Shown one piece after another: positions 6,387 through 21,776 of a DNA stretch of 28,262 nt. The DNA comes from a virus. Below the pieces are notes generated by a model. It worked only from the letters and a program-made list of their open reading frames with translations, made no database searches and was not told the DNA's origin. Numbering within the stretch: position 1 is the first letter of the stretch; the number at the start of each line of letters is the position of its first letter. The stretch lies in IMG/VR virus record IMGVR_UViG_3300042197_002487, positions 1 through 28,262 of that record. One strand, given 5' to 3'. A program made the translations under genes and the position numbers.

Positions 6387-7832
6387 ATGTGTTTATTAAT
6401 AATAAAACCTAAAAATGTAGAGTATGATCATGACTTTGTTGTATGGTCTATAAATAATGGATCAACATTTAATAGAGATGGTATTGGTGCGGCTGTTAGA
6501 AAACAGTCCACCAATACTCTTAAGTTAAATAAAGGATTCTTTAATAACAATGTAAATTATCTTATTAATTGGTTAAAAGAGTGTGATATACAAGCTGAAG
6601 ATGAGTTAATGGTTCACCTTAGACAAGGTACTGCAGGTGGAGTTACTACTTATAATTCTCATCCTTATATCTTGGGTGAAGAATCTTTTAAAGATTCTAT
6701 TAATCCTCTAGTATCAATATTAACTTTAGATGATGATAATGTTACAACAGGTGTATTTGCTCATAATGGTATCTTTTGGAGAAATTCTTATCATACTTTT
6801 GATGGTAACTTAAGTGATACTTATAATTGGGCTATAAATCATTTTGGTACTATAAGTGACATTGATAACTTAAAAGTTAAAGGTGATGAGTATTTTAATG
6901 AAAAAGAAAATAGTTATATATCTGAAGATTTAAATGGTCAGAAAGTATGTTTTATGTTTCCTGATAGAGATTTAATTAGAGTAGGTAACTTTATTTCTGA
7001 GAAAGGATATTTATTTAGTAATAGAGGATATAGTAATGGTTCTTATAATGATAGAGGTGGTGTTGAAATAACTGGATCTAATCATGTACCTATGAATATG
7101 CATAAACATACTCCTATTATAAATTTATTACCTGCTAAAAATGAAACTCCTGCAGAAATTATAGTTGATAATTCTGCTAATTTAGAAGTTAAAAAGACTA
7201 TTAATACTACTTTTGATTTTACAGTTGAAATAACTGCTAATCCTAAACCAGATACTAAAGTTATTGGATTTAGACCTAGTAAGAAAAGTATAAATACTTA
7301 TAGTTTAGATAGATCTAAATTATCTAATGATATTAGATTAGAAGATATTGATATTTTTATTAATATTAATAAAGATAACAAAGATCATTTTATTCTAAAA
7401 GCTAAAGAAAACTTATGTATAAATAATAAAAGTATCAATAAAAATGATAAGTTTTTTATTTATAATGTTTATGATAGTGTAACAACTGGTAATGCTCATG
7501 CTTTATCTTTAAGACCAACTAATATTGATAATGAACAAACATATATTATAAAGAATAGAGATATTAATATTGATTTTCAATTAAGTTGTAAAGATAAATA
7601 TTTCCCTATGTATAGAGATTATATGAAACTTGTTGGTTTATATGGTATAGATATATCTAATAATAAGAAAAAGAAGCTAAGAGCTTTGTATAATAGTCTA
7701 AAACAAAATAATAAGTTACCAGCTTATAAAACTTTTTATAAAGCAAAGTATGAGCCACAAGCTATTATTATGTTTTATGATAATTTTTATAAAGAAGATA
7801 GTATTAGAGAAATTGATTTTGAAACTACCTAA
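6387..7832 (+). CDS. Second class II glutamine amidotransferase-like protein
   Basis: The protein starts MCLLIIKP, placing Cys2 as the N-terminal nucleophile of an Ntn-type glutaminase. Supporting motifs are NRDGIGAA (about 30-37), VHLRQGTAGG (from about 72), NSHPY, FAHNGIFW (near 125-132) and LSDTYNW. These match the viral and bacterial class II amidotransferase-like family that is more divergent than PurF or GlmS. Residues beyond about 230 are unrecognised. A beta-rich stretch around 315-390 contains NKNDKFFIYNV, which recalls a similar stretch in the other amidotransferase. Its ATG directly follows the TAA of the amidoligase gene, so translation is probably coupled and the two products may act together. 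Confidence 0.8.
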   Translation: MCLLIIKPKNVEYDHDFVVWSINNGSTFNRDGIGAAVRKQSTNTLKLNKGFFNNNVNYLINWLKECDIQAEDELMVHLRQGTAGGVTTYNSHPYILGEESFKDSINPLVSILTLDDDNVTTGVFAHNGIFWRNSYHTFDGNLSDTYNWAINHFGTISDIDNLKVKGDEYFNEKENSYISEDLNGQKVCFMFPDRDLIRVGNFISEKGYLFSNRGYSNGSYNDRGGVEITGSNHVPMNMHKHTPIINLLPAKNETPAEIIVDNSANLEVKKTINTTFDFTVEITANPKPDTKVIGFRPSKKSINTYSLDRSKLSNDIRLEDIDIFININKDNKDHFILKAKENLCINNKSINKNDKFFIYNVYDSVTTGNAHALSLRPTNIDNEQTYIIKNRDINIDFQLSCKDKYFPMYRDYMKLVGLYGIDISNNKKKKLRALYNSLKQNNKLPAYKTFYKAKYEPQAIIMFYDNFYKEDSIREIDFETT

Positions 7833-14108: not shown

Positions 14109-14355
14109 CGTAGCTAAAAAAGCAATTAAAAGTGTTGATGTCACTTTAAATTCATTAACAATAGCTCAAGATCTAGCTGATATCTTTATTAAAAATAAAT
14201 ATATGATATTAGAAGATATATTTGATTATGACGAAGTTAATGACTGTTATATTTATAAAGAGCCTATACAAAAGGAATATGAGGCTATTGTTGATAATTT
14301 AAATGACTATTTAATTAATCAATATAGTAATAGTAATTTATATGGAAAAAGATAA
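14101..14355 (+). CDS. Uncharacterised 84-aa protein
   Basis: A small, largely helical protein with a basic N terminus (MNNVAKKAIKSVD) and an acidic middle (ILEDIFDYDEVND). It has no recognised motif. It overlaps both neighbours by 8 and 14 nt, and this tight packing is the main evidence that it is real. Confidence 0.6.
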   Translation: MNNVAKKAIKSVDVTLNSLTIAQDLADIFIKNKYMILEDIFDYDEVNDCYIYKEPIQKEYEAIVDNLNDYLINQYSNSNLYGKR

Positions 14356-14653
14356 AGTGTTATATTCTGAGAAACTAATTAGTTCTATTGAATCTAAATT
14401 TGGTATTCATTCAGATGAGTATGAAGCTGCAATTAACGGAGATTATGCTTTAGGTAGTATGATTGAAGAATATTGTAGTGAAGATGTAATACCTGCAGAT
14501 CAATTTATAATTGCTTATGAGCAAGGAGATGAAGAACTGTGGCGTTATTATCAAATGTTTATACAAAGTCAACCATACAGACAAATGTATGATTTATGGT
14601 TAGAAGCAATGCATACTGATGAAGTAGAAGCTTATTTAGAAAATGCAGAATAA
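14342..14653 (+). CDS. Uncharacterised acidic 103-aa protein
   Basis: The protein is strongly acidic, with many Glu and Asp residues and the aromatic-rich stretch EELWRYYQMFIQSQPYRQMY. No family is recognised. Its charge and size are the kind seen in phage DNA-mimic or host-takeover proteins, but nothing more specific supports that. It overlaps the exonuclease gene by 11 nt, so the two are probably co-translated. Confidence 0.6.
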   Translation: MEKDKVLYSEKLISSIESKFGIHSDEYEAAINGDYALGSMIEEYCSEDVIPADQFIIAYEQGDEELWRYYQMFIQSQPYRQMYDLWLEAMHTDEVEAYLENAE

Positions 14654-15515
14654 ACTAAAAATTAATGTTGATAGTCAGCTAAGGAGTTCCTTAGTTGACT
14701 ATCTTAACAATGTAAAGATTATACAAAAAGATGACTATAAAGTGGCTGTTATAGATGCTGATAGTATAATTTATGCAATTGCTGCTAATAAAAAGCAGAC
14801 AGATGAACAAATAGAGCAATATGGTGATCAAACTAATAGAACTTTAGAAGATGTAATAAATGAGTTTAATAACTATTTTATTAATATCTTAATAAGTTCA
14901 GGTTGTATATATTATGTTGCTTTATTAACAGGAGGATCTCATAGATATGATTTATATCCTGAGTATAAAGCTAATAGAAAACAATTAGAAAAACCTAAGT
15001 ATCTTAAAGAACTAACTGAGTATTGTATAGATAACTTAGAGTTTATTAAATTAAAAGGATACGAAGCTGATGATTTAGTTAATGTGGCTAATAACTATTT
15101 CAAAACTCAAAAGATTTCTACAGTATTAGCTCATACAGATAAGGATTTAAATCAAATTGAAGGTACTCATTTTAATTACAAAACTAATGATTTCTATCAA
15201 GTTAATAATAGTGAAGCATCTTATAGCTTGTGGACACAAGTTATTGTCGGTGATTCTACTGATAATATTAAAGGATTAAAAGGTAAGGGTAAAGCTTTTG
15301 CTTATAAACTTTTACTTAATTTAGATGATAATGAATCTATGAGAAATACAATTTTAGATTGTTATTGTGATATATTAGGAGAGTCTATAGGTATTAATGA
15401 ATTTACTTTAAATTATAATCTTATTAAATTATTAGATAGTATTAAAGATTATGAAACATTTATTCCTATTAAATTAGAAGAAATTGTTAATTTTGAAATA
15501 TCAATAAATATATAA
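14643..15515 (+). CDS. FEN-like 5'-3' exonuclease (PIN fold)
   Basis: The 290-aa protein is a flap-endonuclease/5'-3' exonuclease of the T4 RNase H and T7 gp6 type, which removes RNA primers and flaps. VAVIDADSIIYA holds Asp38 and Asp40. RYDLYPEYKANRK matches the helical clamp region where these enzymes have Y-x-x-Y-K-x-x-R. GYEADDLV gives Glu141, Asp143 and Asp144; HTDKDLNQ gives Asp166 and Asp168; and GDSTDNIKGLKGKGKAFA gives Asp204, Asp207 and the helix-hairpin-helix-like DNA-binding loop. The length is usual. The first 35 residues lie before the fold and contain a strong hairpin at DNA and RNA level. The start overlaps the previous gene by 11 nt. Confidence 0.88.
   Translation: MQNKLKINVDSQLRSSLVDYLNNVKIIQKDDYKVAVIDADSIIYAIAANKKQTDEQIEQYGDQTNRTLEDVINEFNNYFINILISSGCIYYVALLTGGSHRYDLYPEYKANRKQLEKPKYLKELTEYCIDNLEFIKLKGYEADDLVNVANNYFKTQKISTVLAHTDKDLNQIEGTHFNYKTNDFYQVNNSEASYSLWTQVIVGDSTDNIKGLKGKGKAFAYKLLLNLDDNESMRNTILDCYCDILGESIGINEFTLNYNLIKLLDSIKDYETFIPIKLEEIVNFEISINI
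14670..14703 (+). repeat. 16-bp hairpin inside the exonuclease coding region
   Basis: Bases 14670-14685 pair with 14688-14703: 15 Watson-Crick pairs plus one G-U (14678 with 14695), and two bases between the arms. It covers codons 10 to 21 of the exonuclease. The codons CAG, AGG, TCC and GAC used here are rare in this AT-rich gene, and the commoner synonyms would break pairs. This suggests the structure is maintained rather than accidental. Possible roles are control of initiation just upstream, an RNA processing site, or a protein-binding site on DNA. Confidence 0.8.
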
Positions 15516-15532
15516 TAATAAACAGATTAAGG

Positions 15533-16099
15533 ATGATTGTTGTGGAGAATGAGGAAACTAATAACAAAAAATCTAGTTTTGATTATGATAAATTAACCAA
15601 AGCTAGAGTATTTATTAGATGTATGTTGGGTTATCCTTTTGATTTTTATGGTGAAGATTTTCACAATTGTTATATAGGTAAAACAGATCCAGTAATATAC
15701 CTTGTATTTAAGAAACCTTATAAAGATATTTATTCTTTTAATAAGGTAAATGATTTATTAAATACAGATGAATACTATTGTGGAACAAAATCTACAAATA
15801 GTTGGCATATTATTAAGATGAATATACCTCAACAATATGTGAATGATTATTATAAATTTATAGATGGTAAGTATTCTAAAATGTCTGAAGACTATAAAGA
15901 ACATCTACTAAATATGTTGTTAAAATATGATGTTACTAAACTAGTTTATAAGAAAATTAAAGAATGTTTATATCCTACTAAAGAAGCTAGAAAGAAGCTT
16001 GAAGATGAACTAGGTGTTATATTAGATCCTAGTGCAGAAGTAATGAGTATACCAAACTTAGATATTGAAATTTATAAAGATGAATACTTTAAGAACTAG
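15533..16099 (+). CDS. Uncharacterised 188-aa protein
   Basis: No family is assigned. After a hydrophilic N terminus, FIRCMLGYPFDFYGEDFHNC and VIYLVFKKPYKDIY look like a compact alpha/beta domain. The C-terminal 60 residues are helical, with LYPTKEARKKLEDELG. It lies 17 nt after the exonuclease and ends with TAG 4 nt before the diphosphohydrolase gene, in the replication operon. Confidence 0.65.
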   Translation: MIVVENEETNNKKSSFDYDKLTKARVFIRCMLGYPFDFYGEDFHNCYIGKTDPVIYLVFKKPYKDIYSFNKVNDLLNTDEYYCGTKSTNSWHIIKMNIPQQYVNDYYKFIDGKYSKMSEDYKEHLLNMLLKYDVTKLVYKKIKECLYPTKEARKKLEDELGVILDPSAEVMSIPNLDIEIYKDEYFKN

Positions 16100-17179: not shown

Positions 17180-17930
17180 TAAGAGAGTTAATAAGATCAA
17201 AAGATTATACTTTGATATAGAAACTAGTTATAATATTGTAAAATCCTGGAGGATTGGTTATGATATTAAACTAGATCCTAGTAGTATAATTAAAGAAAGA
17301 GCCATAATTTGTATATGTTACAAATGGGAAGGTGATAAAAATGTTAAATCTTTAACATGGAATAGAGGTGATGATAGTAGCATGATAATTAAGTTCTCAG
17401 AGATCTTAAATTCTGCTGATGAAGTGGTTACACATAATGGTGATAAATTTGATGTTAAATGGTTTAGAACTAGATGTTTGTATCATGGAGTAGCATTAAC
17501 TCCTTATATTCAATCTATTGATACTTTAAAAGAAGCTAAGAAACTATTCTTATTTAATTCTAATAAATTAGATTATATAAGTAAGTTTATAGGTCTTAGT
17601 GGTAAAATAGAAACAGGTGGATTAGAGTTATGGGATGATATTATTCTAAGAAATGATAGACAAGCTTTACATAAGATGGTAACTTATTGTAAAAATGATG
17701 TTACATTATTAGAAAAAGTATTCTTAAAACTTAATCCATATTTAAAGAACAAAATTACAAAAACTGTGCGTATAGAAGGTAATGGTATTCATTGTGTAGA
17801 ATGTAACTCAACTAATATTAAGAAAGTTAAACTACGCATAAGTGCTGCTGGTAGATATACTCAACAGTATAGATGTAGTGATTGTGGTAAGTATCATTCA
17901 ATTTCAATTAAAAACCCTAATAAAAAGTAA
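17166..17930 (+). CDS. 3'-5' exonuclease (DEDD, PolB/DnaQ-like) with C-terminal zinc ribbon
   Basis: Residues 1-190 form an RNase H-fold DEDD exonuclease: LYFDIETS with Asp17 and Glu19, THNGDKFDVKWF with Asp93 and Asp96, and TYCKNDVTLLEKV with Asp178. This resembles the proofreading domain of family B polymerases and YprB-type nucleases, but no polymerase domain is attached. The C terminus has Cys210-x2-Cys213 and Cys237-x2-Cys240, a zinc ribbon that probably binds DNA or a partner. It may proofread in trans for a polymerase encoded outside the window, or process recombination ends. It follows the 73-aa gene with a 14-nt overlap. Confidence 0.82.
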   Translation: MKVTDKRVNKIKRLYFDIETSYNIVKSWRIGYDIKLDPSSIIKERAIICICYKWEGDKNVKSLTWNRGDDSSMIIKFSEILNSADEVVTHNGDKFDVKWFRTRCLYHGVALTPYIQSIDTLKEAKKLFLFNSNKLDYISKFIGLSGKIETGGLELWDDIILRNDRQALHKMVTYCKNDVTLLEKVFLKLNPYLKNKITKTVRIEGNGIHCVECNSTNIKKVKLRISAAGRYTQQYRCSDCGKYHSISIKNPNKK

Positions 17931-17931
17931 T

Positions 17932-18252
17932 ATGTATCCAAATTATTTAAATCAGTATCTTAACAAAATGTTATCAAATAGATCTTTAGAAGAATCTATT
18001 AAATCAGAACTTAATGAGTCTGAAATGACTAAAAAAGTATATGAAAAAAATGGTCTTATTGTAACAGAAATTAGTGGTAGAACTCCAAGTGGAGGTTACT
18101 ATTCAGAAACTACTTATAGTTACAAAGAACCTGAAAATAATAAACTTATTAAGCAAAAAGAAGCTGAACTAAATGAAGCTGTTAAAACTCAAGATTTTGA
18201 GAAAGCAGCTGTATTAAGAGATGCTATATTAGCTCTTAGAGAAAATAAGTAA
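17932..18252 (+). CDS. Small UVR-motif protein
   Basis: The 106-aa protein starts at the ATG at 17932, one base after the exonuclease stop. Its last 37 residues are a UVR motif: EAELNEAVKTQDFEKAAVLR followed by DAILALRENK. This is the helical hairpin that joins UvrB to UvrC and is also found in McsA and ClpC-type proteins. The N-terminal part has a helical segment and a beta stretch with GRTPSGGYYSETTYSY. No nuclease or ATPase domain is present. It could bind host UvrB/UvrC or a Clp partner, or form a coiled coil with a phage protein. It sits directly before the structured leader of the ribonucleotide reductase gene. Confidence 0.7.
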   Translation: MYPNYLNQYLNKMLSNRSLEESIKSELNESEMTKKVYEKNGLIVTEISGRTPSGGYYSETTYSYKEPENNKLIKQKEAELNEAVKTQDFEKAAVLRDAILALRENK

Positions 18253-18350
18253 ATGCTATTCTATATATTATTAGAATAAGTTGGGAATGAAGAGTCGGGG
18301 GAATAAATTAGTTCCCCCACTCAATTAAGTGTGGAAATTAAATAATATAT
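18253..18350 (+). promoter_or_regulatory. Structured 5' leader of class II ribonucleotide reductase (candidate riboswitch / nrdJ-type motif)
   Basis: This 98-nt gap has structure and G/C runs unlike any other gap here. Stem 1: TATTCTA (18257-18263) with TAGAATA (18272-18278). Stem 2: GAGT (18292-18295) and GGGGGAA (18297-18303) with TTCCCCC and ACTC (18312-18322), leaving one bulged C; AGTT (18279-18282) can add pairs with AATT (18323-18326). An unpaired GGGAA lies at 18283-18287. CCAC (18317-18320) can instead pair with GTGG (18331-18334), which would disrupt stem 2. The gene that follows encodes a B12-dependent enzyme. Known regulators of such genes are cobalamin riboswitches and the candidate nrdJ RNA motif. 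Which of these, if either, is not settled here. Confidence 0.6.
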
Positions 18351-20219
18351 ATGATAGAAAACAAAAAAGAAACTTCAATTGAAGTGTTAAGTGACATTGT
18401 TGTATTCAACAAGTATGCAAAGTATGTACCTTCTTTAAAAAGGAGAGAAACTTATAGTGAAGTAGTAGATAGGTATGTTAATATGATGTTAAAGAAATAT
18501 CCTCATTTAAAAGAAGATATTATTTATCAATCAAAATTTATATATGATAAGAAAGTATTGCCTAGTATGAGAGCTATGCAGTTTTCTGGTGCTGCTATTG
18601 AGAAAAATGAAGCTAGAATTTATAACTGTTGTTATCTACCTATAGATGATTATAGAAGTTTTAGTGAAATAATGTTTCTCTTATTAGGTGGTACAGGTGT
18701 TGGATATTCTGTTCAAAACAATCATATTGATAAGTTACCTGAAATACATAAACCTACTAAAGAACAAAAATATCTTGTAGGTGATAGTATTGAAGGTTGG
18801 GCTGATGCTGTAAGACATCTTATGGCTAGTTACTTTGGACTTAGAACTACTAAACCTAAATTTGATTTTAGTGATATTAGACCTAAAGGACAAAGACTTA
18901 TTACTGCTGGTGGTAAAGCCCCTGGTCCTGAACCACTTATGAGGTGTTTATTTGAAATAGAAAGAATTCTTGATAGAAAGAATAATGGTGAGAAATTAAC
19001 ATCATTAGAAGTACATGATATTGTATGTCACTTAGCTGATTCAGTATTAGCTGGAGGTATTCGTAGAGCTGCATTAATTTGTTTATTTAATGCTGATGAT
19101 GAAGATATGCTTACTTGTAAGTTTGGTAATTGGTGGGAAACTAATCCACAAAGAGGTAGAGCTAATAACTCTGCTGTTCTTGTAAGACATAAAATATCTG
19201 AGCAATTCTTCTTAGATTTGTGGAAAAAGATTGAGCTGTCTAATAGTGGAGAACCAGGTATTTATTTTACTAATAACCCAGATTGGGGTACAAATCCTTG
19301 CTGTGAAATAGCATTACGTCCTTATCAGTTTTGTAACTTATCTGAAATTAATGTATCAAATTTAGAGTCACAAGAAGATTATAATAATAGAGCACAAGCT
19401 GCTGCATTCTTTGGTACATTACAAGCAGGTTTTACAGATTTTCATTACTTAAGACCTATTTGGAAGAAAACTACTGAGAAAGATGCTCTTATAGGTATAG
19501 GAATGACTGGTATTGCTTCTAATGAAGTATTTAAGTATAGTCCTAGAGAAGCTACAGAAGTTGTTATTGAAACTAATAAACGAGTAGCTAACTATATAAA
19601 TATTAAATCTGCAGCTAGAACAACTTGTATTAAACCTTCAGGTACTACTAGTTTAGTATTAGGAGTTAGTTCAGGTATTCATGCTTGGCATAATGATTAT
19701 TATATTAGAAGGATGCAGATGAATAAGTCTGAAGCTATTTATGACTACTTAAGTAAAAATCATCCTGAGATTATACAAGACTATAAGATGATTCCTAATA
19801 GTGCTGTAGTAGAAATTCCCATTAAAGCTCCTGAAGGTGCTACTATTAGAAACAAAGAAACAGCTTTAGAGTTACTTAATAAGGTTAAGCTTTTAAATGA
19901 AACTTGGATTAAACCAGGTCATAATGCAGGTGAAAATACTCACAACATATCTGCTACTATATCTGTAAAAGATACTGAGTGGGAAACTGTAGGTGAATGG
20001 ATGTGGATTAATAGATCTTATTTTAATGGTCTATCTGTTTTACCTTATGATGGTGGTAGTTATGTACAAGCTCCTTTTGAAGATATAAGTAAAGAGCAAT
20101 ATGAAGAAATGATTAAACATGTTCATTCTATTGATCTTACTAAAGTTATTGAAGCTGATGATAATACTACATTAGTTGATGAAATAGCTTGTGGAGCAGC
20201 TGGTTGTGAAGTAAAATAA
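18351..20219 (+). CDS. nrdJ: Adenosylcobalamin-dependent ribonucleotide reductase (class II, monomeric RTPR type)
   Basis: The 622-aa enzyme reduces ribonucleotides to deoxyribonucleotides using a thiyl radical generated from coenzyme B12. YNCCYLP (Cys93/94) and FCNLSEI (Cys328) give the reducing pair. NPCCEIAL (315-322) gives the radical Cys317 and Glu319. The spacing from Glu319 to Cys328 matches Lactobacillus leichmannii RTPR (410 to 419). IKPSGTTSLVLGVSSGIHAW is the conserved phosphate-binding loop. The C terminus, ACGAAGCEVK with Cys614 and Cys619, is the re-reduction pair. It is shorter than the about 739-aa bacterial enzyme. No small subunit or activase is nearby, as expected for class II. 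It makes phage deoxynucleotides with or without oxygen if the host supplies B12. Confidence 0.93.
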   Translation: MIENKKETSIEVLSDIVVFNKYAKYVPSLKRRETYSEVVDRYVNMMLKKYPHLKEDIIYQSKFIYDKKVLPSMRAMQFSGAAIEKNEARIYNCCYLPIDDYRSFSEIMFLLLGGTGVGYSVQNNHIDKLPEIHKPTKEQKYLVGDSIEGWADAVRHLMASYFGLRTTKPKFDFSDIRPKGQRLITAGGKAPGPEPLMRCLFEIERILDRKNNGEKLTSLEVHDIVCHLADSVLAGGIRRAALICLFNADDEDMLTCKFGNWWETNPQRGRANNSAVLVRHKISEQFFLDLWKKIELSNSGEPGIYFTNNPDWGTNPCCEIALRPYQFCNLSEINVSNLESQEDYNNRAQAAAFFGTLQAGFTDFHYLRPIWKKTTEKDALIGIGMTGIASNEVFKYSPREATEVVIETNKRVANYINIKSAARTTCIKPSGTTSLVLGVSSGIHAWHNDYYIRRMQMNKSEAIYDYLSKNHPEIIQDYKMIPNSAVVEIPIKAPEGATIRNKETALELLNKVKLLNETWIKPGHNAGENTHNISATISVKDTEWETVGEWMWINRSYFNGLSVLPYDGGSYVQAPFEDISKEQYEEMIKHVHSIDLTKVIEADDNTTLVDEIACGAAGCEVK

Positions 20220-21745: not shown

Positions 21746-21749
21746 TAAG

Positions 21750-21776
21750 AAAGGGGAGCTAATAACTCCCCTTTTT
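21750..21776. terminator. Bidirectional intrinsic terminator between convergent operons
   Basis: AAAGGGGAG (21750-21758) pairs fully with CTCCCCTTT (21766-21774) around a 7-base loop, followed on the plus strand by more T (TTTTATTT to 21780). On the minus strand the stem is followed by CTTATTATG, less U-rich. It sits between the stop of the AP2 gene (21745) and the stop of the facing 1395-aa gene (21780), so it can end both transcripts. It is one of the few G/C-rich runs in the window. Confidence 0.9.

Follow-up and report, generated by a model that had tools for sequence, protein, structure and literature searches.

Within the 28,262-base virus record analysed here (the window, by which we mean that whole stretch of DNA), a strong hairpin lies inside the first codons of a gene for a 5'-3' exonuclease. 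The hairpin is real, and as a coding hairpin it is specific to one clade of crAss-like phages. We tentatively favour the view, at a little under even confidence, that it acts in the mRNA upon translation, from +28 to +61 relative to an AUG that overlaps the upstream stop, in a manner resembling the published START class of structures. The features on which the argument turns are these.

14670-14685 and 14688-14703, plus strand: arms of the hairpin, with 15 Watson-Crick pairs and one G-U
14666-14709, plus strand: extended stem, with a lower helix UGUU/AACA across a 2-nt bulge
14685-14688, plus strand: loop AGUU predicted by RNA folding (GGAA in the relative L025)
14643-15515, plus strand: 5'-3' exonuclease gene, PF02739 from residue 34; phrog_107
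14643-14741, plus strand: 33-codon N-terminal extension holding the hairpin, most likely translated; peptide conserved in the sister clade
14643-14653, plus strand: gene overlap of 11 nt, between the exonuclease ATG at 14643 and the upstream stop TAA at 14651-14653
14342-14653, plus strand: upstream ORF of 103 aa, without a PHROG hit; its stop is 16 nt upstream of the arms

The earlier note on this DNA had claimed 15 pairs and a G-U at 14670-14703, overlapping codons 10-21 near the start of a 5'-3' exonuclease gene, and both the coordinates and the pairing are exact, as is the placement in the gene: the ORF matches PF02739 (the resolvase-like N-terminal domain) at 44.7 bits against a curated cut-off of 34.3, while PF01367 (the C-terminal SAM fold) scores 22.8 bits, below its curated cut-off of 40. 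The sole non-Watson-Crick pair between the arms is G14678-T14695, the lower helix adds four pairs (14666-14669 with 14706-14709), and the predicted loop is one of four nucleotides because a loop of two cannot close. Folding of 14660-14715 as RNA gives -24.5 kcal/mol (z -6.8), a value matched by none of 200 shuffles, and with the window sampled every 5 nt no other 50-nt stretch is as stable; none of 60 dinucleotide-preserving shuffles of the window reached -24.5 or lower in 50 nt (best -23.7, mean best -17.1). The length of the stem is by itself unexceptional, at least 16 pairs with G-U allowed being found in 6 of 40 shuffles of this AT-rich 28-kb sequence. In the codon-shuffled control proposed with the original observation, versions encoding the same protein were equally stable in 0 of 5000 cases for codons 9-23 (mean -7.3, best -19.0) and in 1 of 5000 for codons 1-33, and permutation of codons within the gene likewise yielded none of 5000 for codons 9-23 (best -20.7). 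The sense strand folds better than the antisense in five of the six sequences tried, L007 being the one in which it does not.

Four codons within the hairpin, CAG, AGG, TCC and GAC, had been singled out as uncommon, and they are, making up 11%, 6%, 1% and 8% of their respective synonyms in the window. The further claim that their common synonyms would break the stem was too strong, since the stem is only weakened by them: CAG to CAA leaves the energy the same and turns the G-U into an A-U, the common synonyms of AGG, TCC and GAC cost 2.3-3.1 kcal/mol apiece, and with all four in place a hairpin of -15.9 kcal/mol with a 6-nt loop is still left. As evidence for a selected structure, the four named codons do not prove the point.

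The exonuclease gene sits in a long run of same-strand genes, and its first 33 codons form an extension ahead of the recognised domain. Judging from codon-level variation and a shared peptide, this extension is most likely translated: pN/pS over five sequences is 0.35 for codons 1-33 and 0.32 for codons 34-290, and the sister clade (L035-L038), at 51-52% identity to the window protein, keeps the extension as SIRGTLVDFISNTK, with the conserved motif [LI]R[GS][TS]LVD[FY]-x-x-N-x-K. AlphaFold2 (mean pLDDT 84.1) predicts a helix at extension residues 11-28. The beginning of the protein near the first strand in distant relatives had raised the alternative of a non-coding leader, with which a GTG start at 14742 would agree; it was rejected on the same pN/pS values and the sister-clade peptide. 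The extension was not seen in L004, L012, L013 and L016 or in 32 further loci viewed, which comprise L040 and L041 (L040 and L067 being one contig) and 30 of the at least 80 viral matches listed, a list that may lack intermediate relatives; in 27 of these 32 the first strand lies no more than 14 residues from the upstream stop (24 by motif scan, 3 by eye), and in the other five a longer, unrelated stretch precedes it. Among the loci viewed, the extension is present in the clade and its sister clade only. A blastn search with the locus in phages returned no match, and the corresponding tblastn search returned 1541 records, in none of which 80% of the query was covered; a scan of genome contigs yielded 80 loci, all of them distant. 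As the hairpin overlaps a conserved peptide, the latter explains part of the hairpin's sequence conservation.

The window has a gene order like that of Cellulophaga phage phi14:2. A 97-kb relative, G001 (L053-L057), encodes a protein of which a 292-residue fragment shares 29% identity with crAss001 gp32, the major capsid protein, across 296 alignment columns (E 2e-38), and carries head, terminase and portal PHROGs. By this sequence comparison the phage is crAss-like (Crassvirales), the capsid test having been made on G001 and not on the window. The two isolated crAss-like phages compared infect Bacteroides and Cellulophaga, and the host is probably a member of the Bacteroidota.

Conservation of the hairpin is confined to one clade. 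It is kept at the same place in ten records, namely the window, L001, L002, L003, L007-L011 and L025. The core is identical to that of the window in L001, L002 and L003; L007, L008 and L010 carry CAG to CAA (G-U to A-U) and AGG to AGA (with loss of the apical G-C); L009 and L011 carry the same two changes together with TCC to TCT (G-C to G-U); and L025 retains a 12-pair core with the loop GGAA for AGTT and the residues GT for SS. The apical G-C has therefore been lost by synonymous change in five of the ten records (three of eight distinct sequences), and 12-13 stacked pairs are left in the eroded relatives. The lower helix of the relatives pairs in another register, and in L009 and L011 it includes one compensatory pair, G-C to A-U, in which a V9I change has a synonymous partner. 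Predicted energies for codons 9-23 range from -14.8 to -23.8 across the ten records, with codon-sampled controls equally stable in 0 of 2000 cases for nine of them and 1 of 2000 for L011. All four sister records, L035-L038, possess the same gene overlap and peptide and lack the hairpin; their corresponding stretch folds at -8.2, and 233-251 of 2000 controls are as stable.

Selection upon the stem is suggested, and it is probably weak selection that has kept the stem within the clade. We ran simulations of synonymous drift along the gene tree, beginning with an ancestor that bore the hairpin, for comparison with an observed mean of -19.9. Usage-weighted neutral models gave a mean dG of -12.5 to -14.9 (P 0-0.005 by model and root), uniform and transition-weighted models gave -17.6 to -18.0 (P 0.15-0.23), and rates scaled to the lower synonymous rate of codons 1-8 and 21-80 gave P of 0.09-0.66; because the simulated P depends on the neutral model, selection is suggested and no more. 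Synonymous divergence tells against selection, pS in the hairpin codons (0.22) being just slightly lower than in codons 34-290 (0.29) and higher than in codons 34-66 (0.08). Covariation was rejected as proof of selection, with invariant pairs and equally good shuffles: across the eight distinct sequences 95.8% of cells in helix 1 are paired, 10 of its 18 pairs never vary, and the single pair changed on both sides is equalled in 121 of 500 column shuffles, such that pair changes among these sequences do not clearly beat either control. By hand count the departures within the stem consist of six pairs with G-U against one A-C, a 6:1 ratio that is not significant (P 0.125). The earlier proposal that the structure exceeds the needs of the protein is consequently upheld in part, by the codon-sampled controls, the stem of L025 and the usage-weighted simulations, and is opposed by the other null models and by the sister records that lack the hairpin. 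Its suggested comparison with relatives had a similarly divided outcome, the hairpin being kept in nine of them, while five break the apical G-C by synonymous change and the covariation does not exceed its shuffle null.

A second predicted structure follows immediately downstream.

14716-14772, plus strand: helix of 14716-14724 with 14764-14772, and inner helices

In the relatives 100% of its cells are paired, but it is nearly invariant. Its outer helix overlaps exonuclease codons 34-48 (14742-14786), which show zero synonymous variation among nine sequences, less than the hairpin.

How might the hairpin act? In the reading that we favour, the exonuclease AUG, which overlaps the stop of the upstream gene, would be used in a host that does not rely upon Shine-Dalgarno pairing, and a hairpin starting 24-28 nt past this AUG would sit directly ahead of a ribosome that is either finishing the upstream gene or beginning the exonuclease. 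The hairpin could hold that ribosome at the overlapping stop and start, and would thereby tune initiation or reinitiation on the exonuclease. We infer here the action at the RNA level and the direction of its effect, as we do the selection and the host. Initiation is more often lowered than raised by structure close to a start, which counts against this reading. Phage mRNAs offer familiar examples of hairpins that govern translation or processing close to the starts of genes, including those of lambda cIII, the T7 RNase III sites and T4 gene 49; these resemble the present case in standing at or near the starts of phage genes in polycistronic messages, and differ from it in that they cover the ribosome-binding site or are intergenic, whereas the exonuclease hairpin lies wholly inside codons 8-23. 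Bacteroidota of the kind presumed to be the host are described in PMC6847099 as lacking Shine-Dalgarno sequences, with initiation tuned by structure and by an A at -3, and an A stands at -3 of the exonuclease start in all 14 records.

The closest published parallel is START (structure-assisted RNA translation), which PMC7664666 describes as stable coding structures between +16 and +65 in eukaryotic and bacterial genes, selected by a stable structure within that interval and a ratio of MFE to MFErand of at least 2. Over the same interval the exonuclease is an outlier among the 29 ORFs of the window (-23.5, the next being -9.5 and the median -5.5), and the ratio to random lies between 3.95 and 4.79 for all ten clade records and between 0.87 and 1.19 for the four sister records; the published screen is hence passed by every clade record and by none (0/4) of the sister records. 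The start position that PMC7664666 describes as crucial is +16 to +19, and the present stem begins at +24 (14666) or +28 (14670); since this is later, membership of START is not claimed. A further difference from START as presented there is that we are concerned with a phage gene overlapping its upstream neighbour. No paper on coding hairpins in crAss-like phages appeared among the top-ranked literature matches. If translation is indeed tuned in this way, the hairpin would offer a concrete and testable control of start-codon use in phages whose hosts lack Shine-Dalgarno pairing, and it would bear on the selection of start codons by ribosomes where genes overlap closely.

Translation is not the only account that the comparisons permit, and of the functions listed in the earlier note it is a translation role that fits best. 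The strongest rival, which we consider possible but less probable, is that the hairpin has no function, being a short inverted repeat that became almost perfect in the ancestor of the clade, for example by template switching of a DNA polymerase between the arms, and that has been eroding by descent ever since. Its absence from four sister records is in keeping with this, as is the finding that the right-arm residues LVD(F/Y) are common to both clades and the left-arm residues differ (SQLR vs PSIR); the erosion of the stem in five records and the fit of the uniform neutral models point the same way. Template switching can create or repair hairpins, as set out in PMC8794818, and rewrites codons in yeast genes according to PMC8604942, and the repeats described in these works share with ours a near-perfect inverted repeat in coding sequence that a sister lineage lacks; they differ in that no arm-copying intermediate was found for the exonuclease hairpin. 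Against an origin of this kind, the clades differ generally across extension residues 3-13, and hence no rewriting specific to the left arm is shown; the usage-weighted models reject drift; and template switching does not obviously predict that hairpins should be over-represented among the first 45 codons, as described below. Should the exonuclease hairpin be no more than an inverted repeat in decay, it would illustrate clearly that a striking structure in coding sequence can mislead.

It is improbable, though less so than the readings that follow, that the hairpin serves for RNase III-type processing or for mRNA stability where the upstream ORF meets the exonuclease in a polycistronic message. 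Its place between two genes of a long same-strand run and its 15 stacked pairs, continued by the lower helix across a bulge, would suit this role, but stems with 12-13 stacked pairs, as in the eroded relatives, are short for an RNase III substrate, and with the hairpin inside codons a cut would destroy the exonuclease message. An element acting in DNA (a palindromic binding site, a cruciform, or a signal for replication or packaging) is very unlikely: the hairpin does amount to a 34-bp near-palindrome at the DNA level, but this occurs at one site per record in nine of the 11 records searched (among them several fragments; the other two belong to the sister clade) in place of the repeats of an operator, the G-T mismatch is retained in five of eight distinct sequences, and strong hairpins track gene starts. 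The single site and the mismatch likewise disfavour the cruciform proposed at the outset. Scarcely credible is a transcription terminator or a known structured RNA, which the strong stem-loop might call to mind, given that no T-run follows the stem, that 14300-15600 contains no terminator-like site on either strand, and that no Rfam model comes near its gathering score in 14400-15000 (best 23.1 bits vs 65, on the minus strand).

Two other candidates were rejected. A sequestered Shine-Dalgarno sequence fails in that the AAGGAG of the stem has no in-frame start at a fitting distance (the motif reads AAGAAG in five relatives and AAGGGG in L025), and a programmed frameshift fails in that the hairpin comes after the end of the upstream frame, and inspection by eye showed no slippery heptamer.

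The part of this work that appears most worth following is an excess of strong hairpins in early codons; the single exonuclease hairpin is ordinary enough. We compared G001 with a related genome, G008 (L058-L062), over those 53 of 66 reciprocal orthologous gene pairs whose starts are conserved, a strong hairpin being defined as -14.5 or lower in 45 nt and the null by 30 shuffles. In the first 45 codons G001 has 7 strong hairpins against a null mean of 1.6 (max 4), and G008 has 8 against 1.4 (max 4), a four- to six-fold excess in the two related phage genomes, while later codons show none (6 vs 6.4 expected in G001, 9 vs 8.5 in G008). With mechanically assigned starts and overlapping windows, the later codons of G008 hold 11 against 5.5 (max 8), and in every bin the average folding exceeds that of the null in strength. 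Four genes have an early hairpin in both genomes (hypergeometric P 0.004, a value inflated by sequence similarity). With mechanically assigned starts and a threshold of -15, the early excess is seen also in crAss001 and phi14:2, the latter having an excess in later codons too (9 vs 2.3 at this threshold, 11 vs 3.4 with a threshold set for each genome). Mechanical starts with a threshold set for each genome gave an early excess in the crAss-like stretches and early counts of 5 vs 1.1 in T4, 3 vs 0.7 in phi10:1, 2 vs 0.4 in B40-8 and 4 vs 0.4 in elemoC, and no early excess in Staphylococcus phage K (0 vs 0.1) or CP220 (0 vs 0.4); because T4, phi10:1, B40-8 and elemoC also show it, the excess is not proven to be special to crAss-like phages. 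Of the genes with early hairpins, 13 of 14 overlap their upstream neighbour or lie no more than 5 nt from it, against about 100 of 172 others (P 0.01), in a post hoc count in which orthologues enter twice and the figure of 100 was back-calculated from rounded fractions; rank tests were not significant (P 0.18 and 0.43).

The window itself holds a second hairpin of this type.

6475-6521: second coding hairpin, in codons 30-45 of a glutamine-amidotransferase-like gene (ORF 6387-7832), -23.9 kcal/mol

The gene has no Pfam hit, and its name therefore rests on the MC at its start and a neighbouring GATase gene. The hairpin contains the rare codons CAG, TCC and ACC, and is kept in six records (the window and L223-L227) from both clades at z of -4.2 to -5.8; its bases have changed and its register has shifted between relatives, and the conservation is hence not one of column-wise covariation. 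It is conceivable, if doubtful, that crAss-like phages place early-codon hairpins in selected, tightly packed genes as a general, Shine-Dalgarno-independent means of start choice or coupling, of which the exonuclease hairpin would be a clade-specific instance and that at 6475-6521 a cross-clade, re-registered one. PMC7063772 reports, as an average trend over species, that selected folding peaks downstream of starts, and the early-hairpin pattern accordingly extends a known kind; the likeness lies in the excess folding of the first part of coding sequences, and the difference in that the trend described there is a species-average profile, whereas here single strong hairpins occur in a few genes of one phage group. 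Should the exonuclease hairpin tune translation, the early-codon excess would make such control of starts testable genome-wide.

Other features of the window were noted in passing. A strong intergenic hairpin, GGGGGAA / TTCCCCC, lies at 18292-18322, between the ORF at 17842-18252 and a ribonucleotide reductase gene that begins at 18351, and a terminator-like hairpin with a T-run stands at 21748-21776, where two converging gene blocks meet. The reductase (18351-20219) carries a class II (B12-type) insertion domain by Pfam; phi14:2, by contrast, has annotated large and small reductase subunits.
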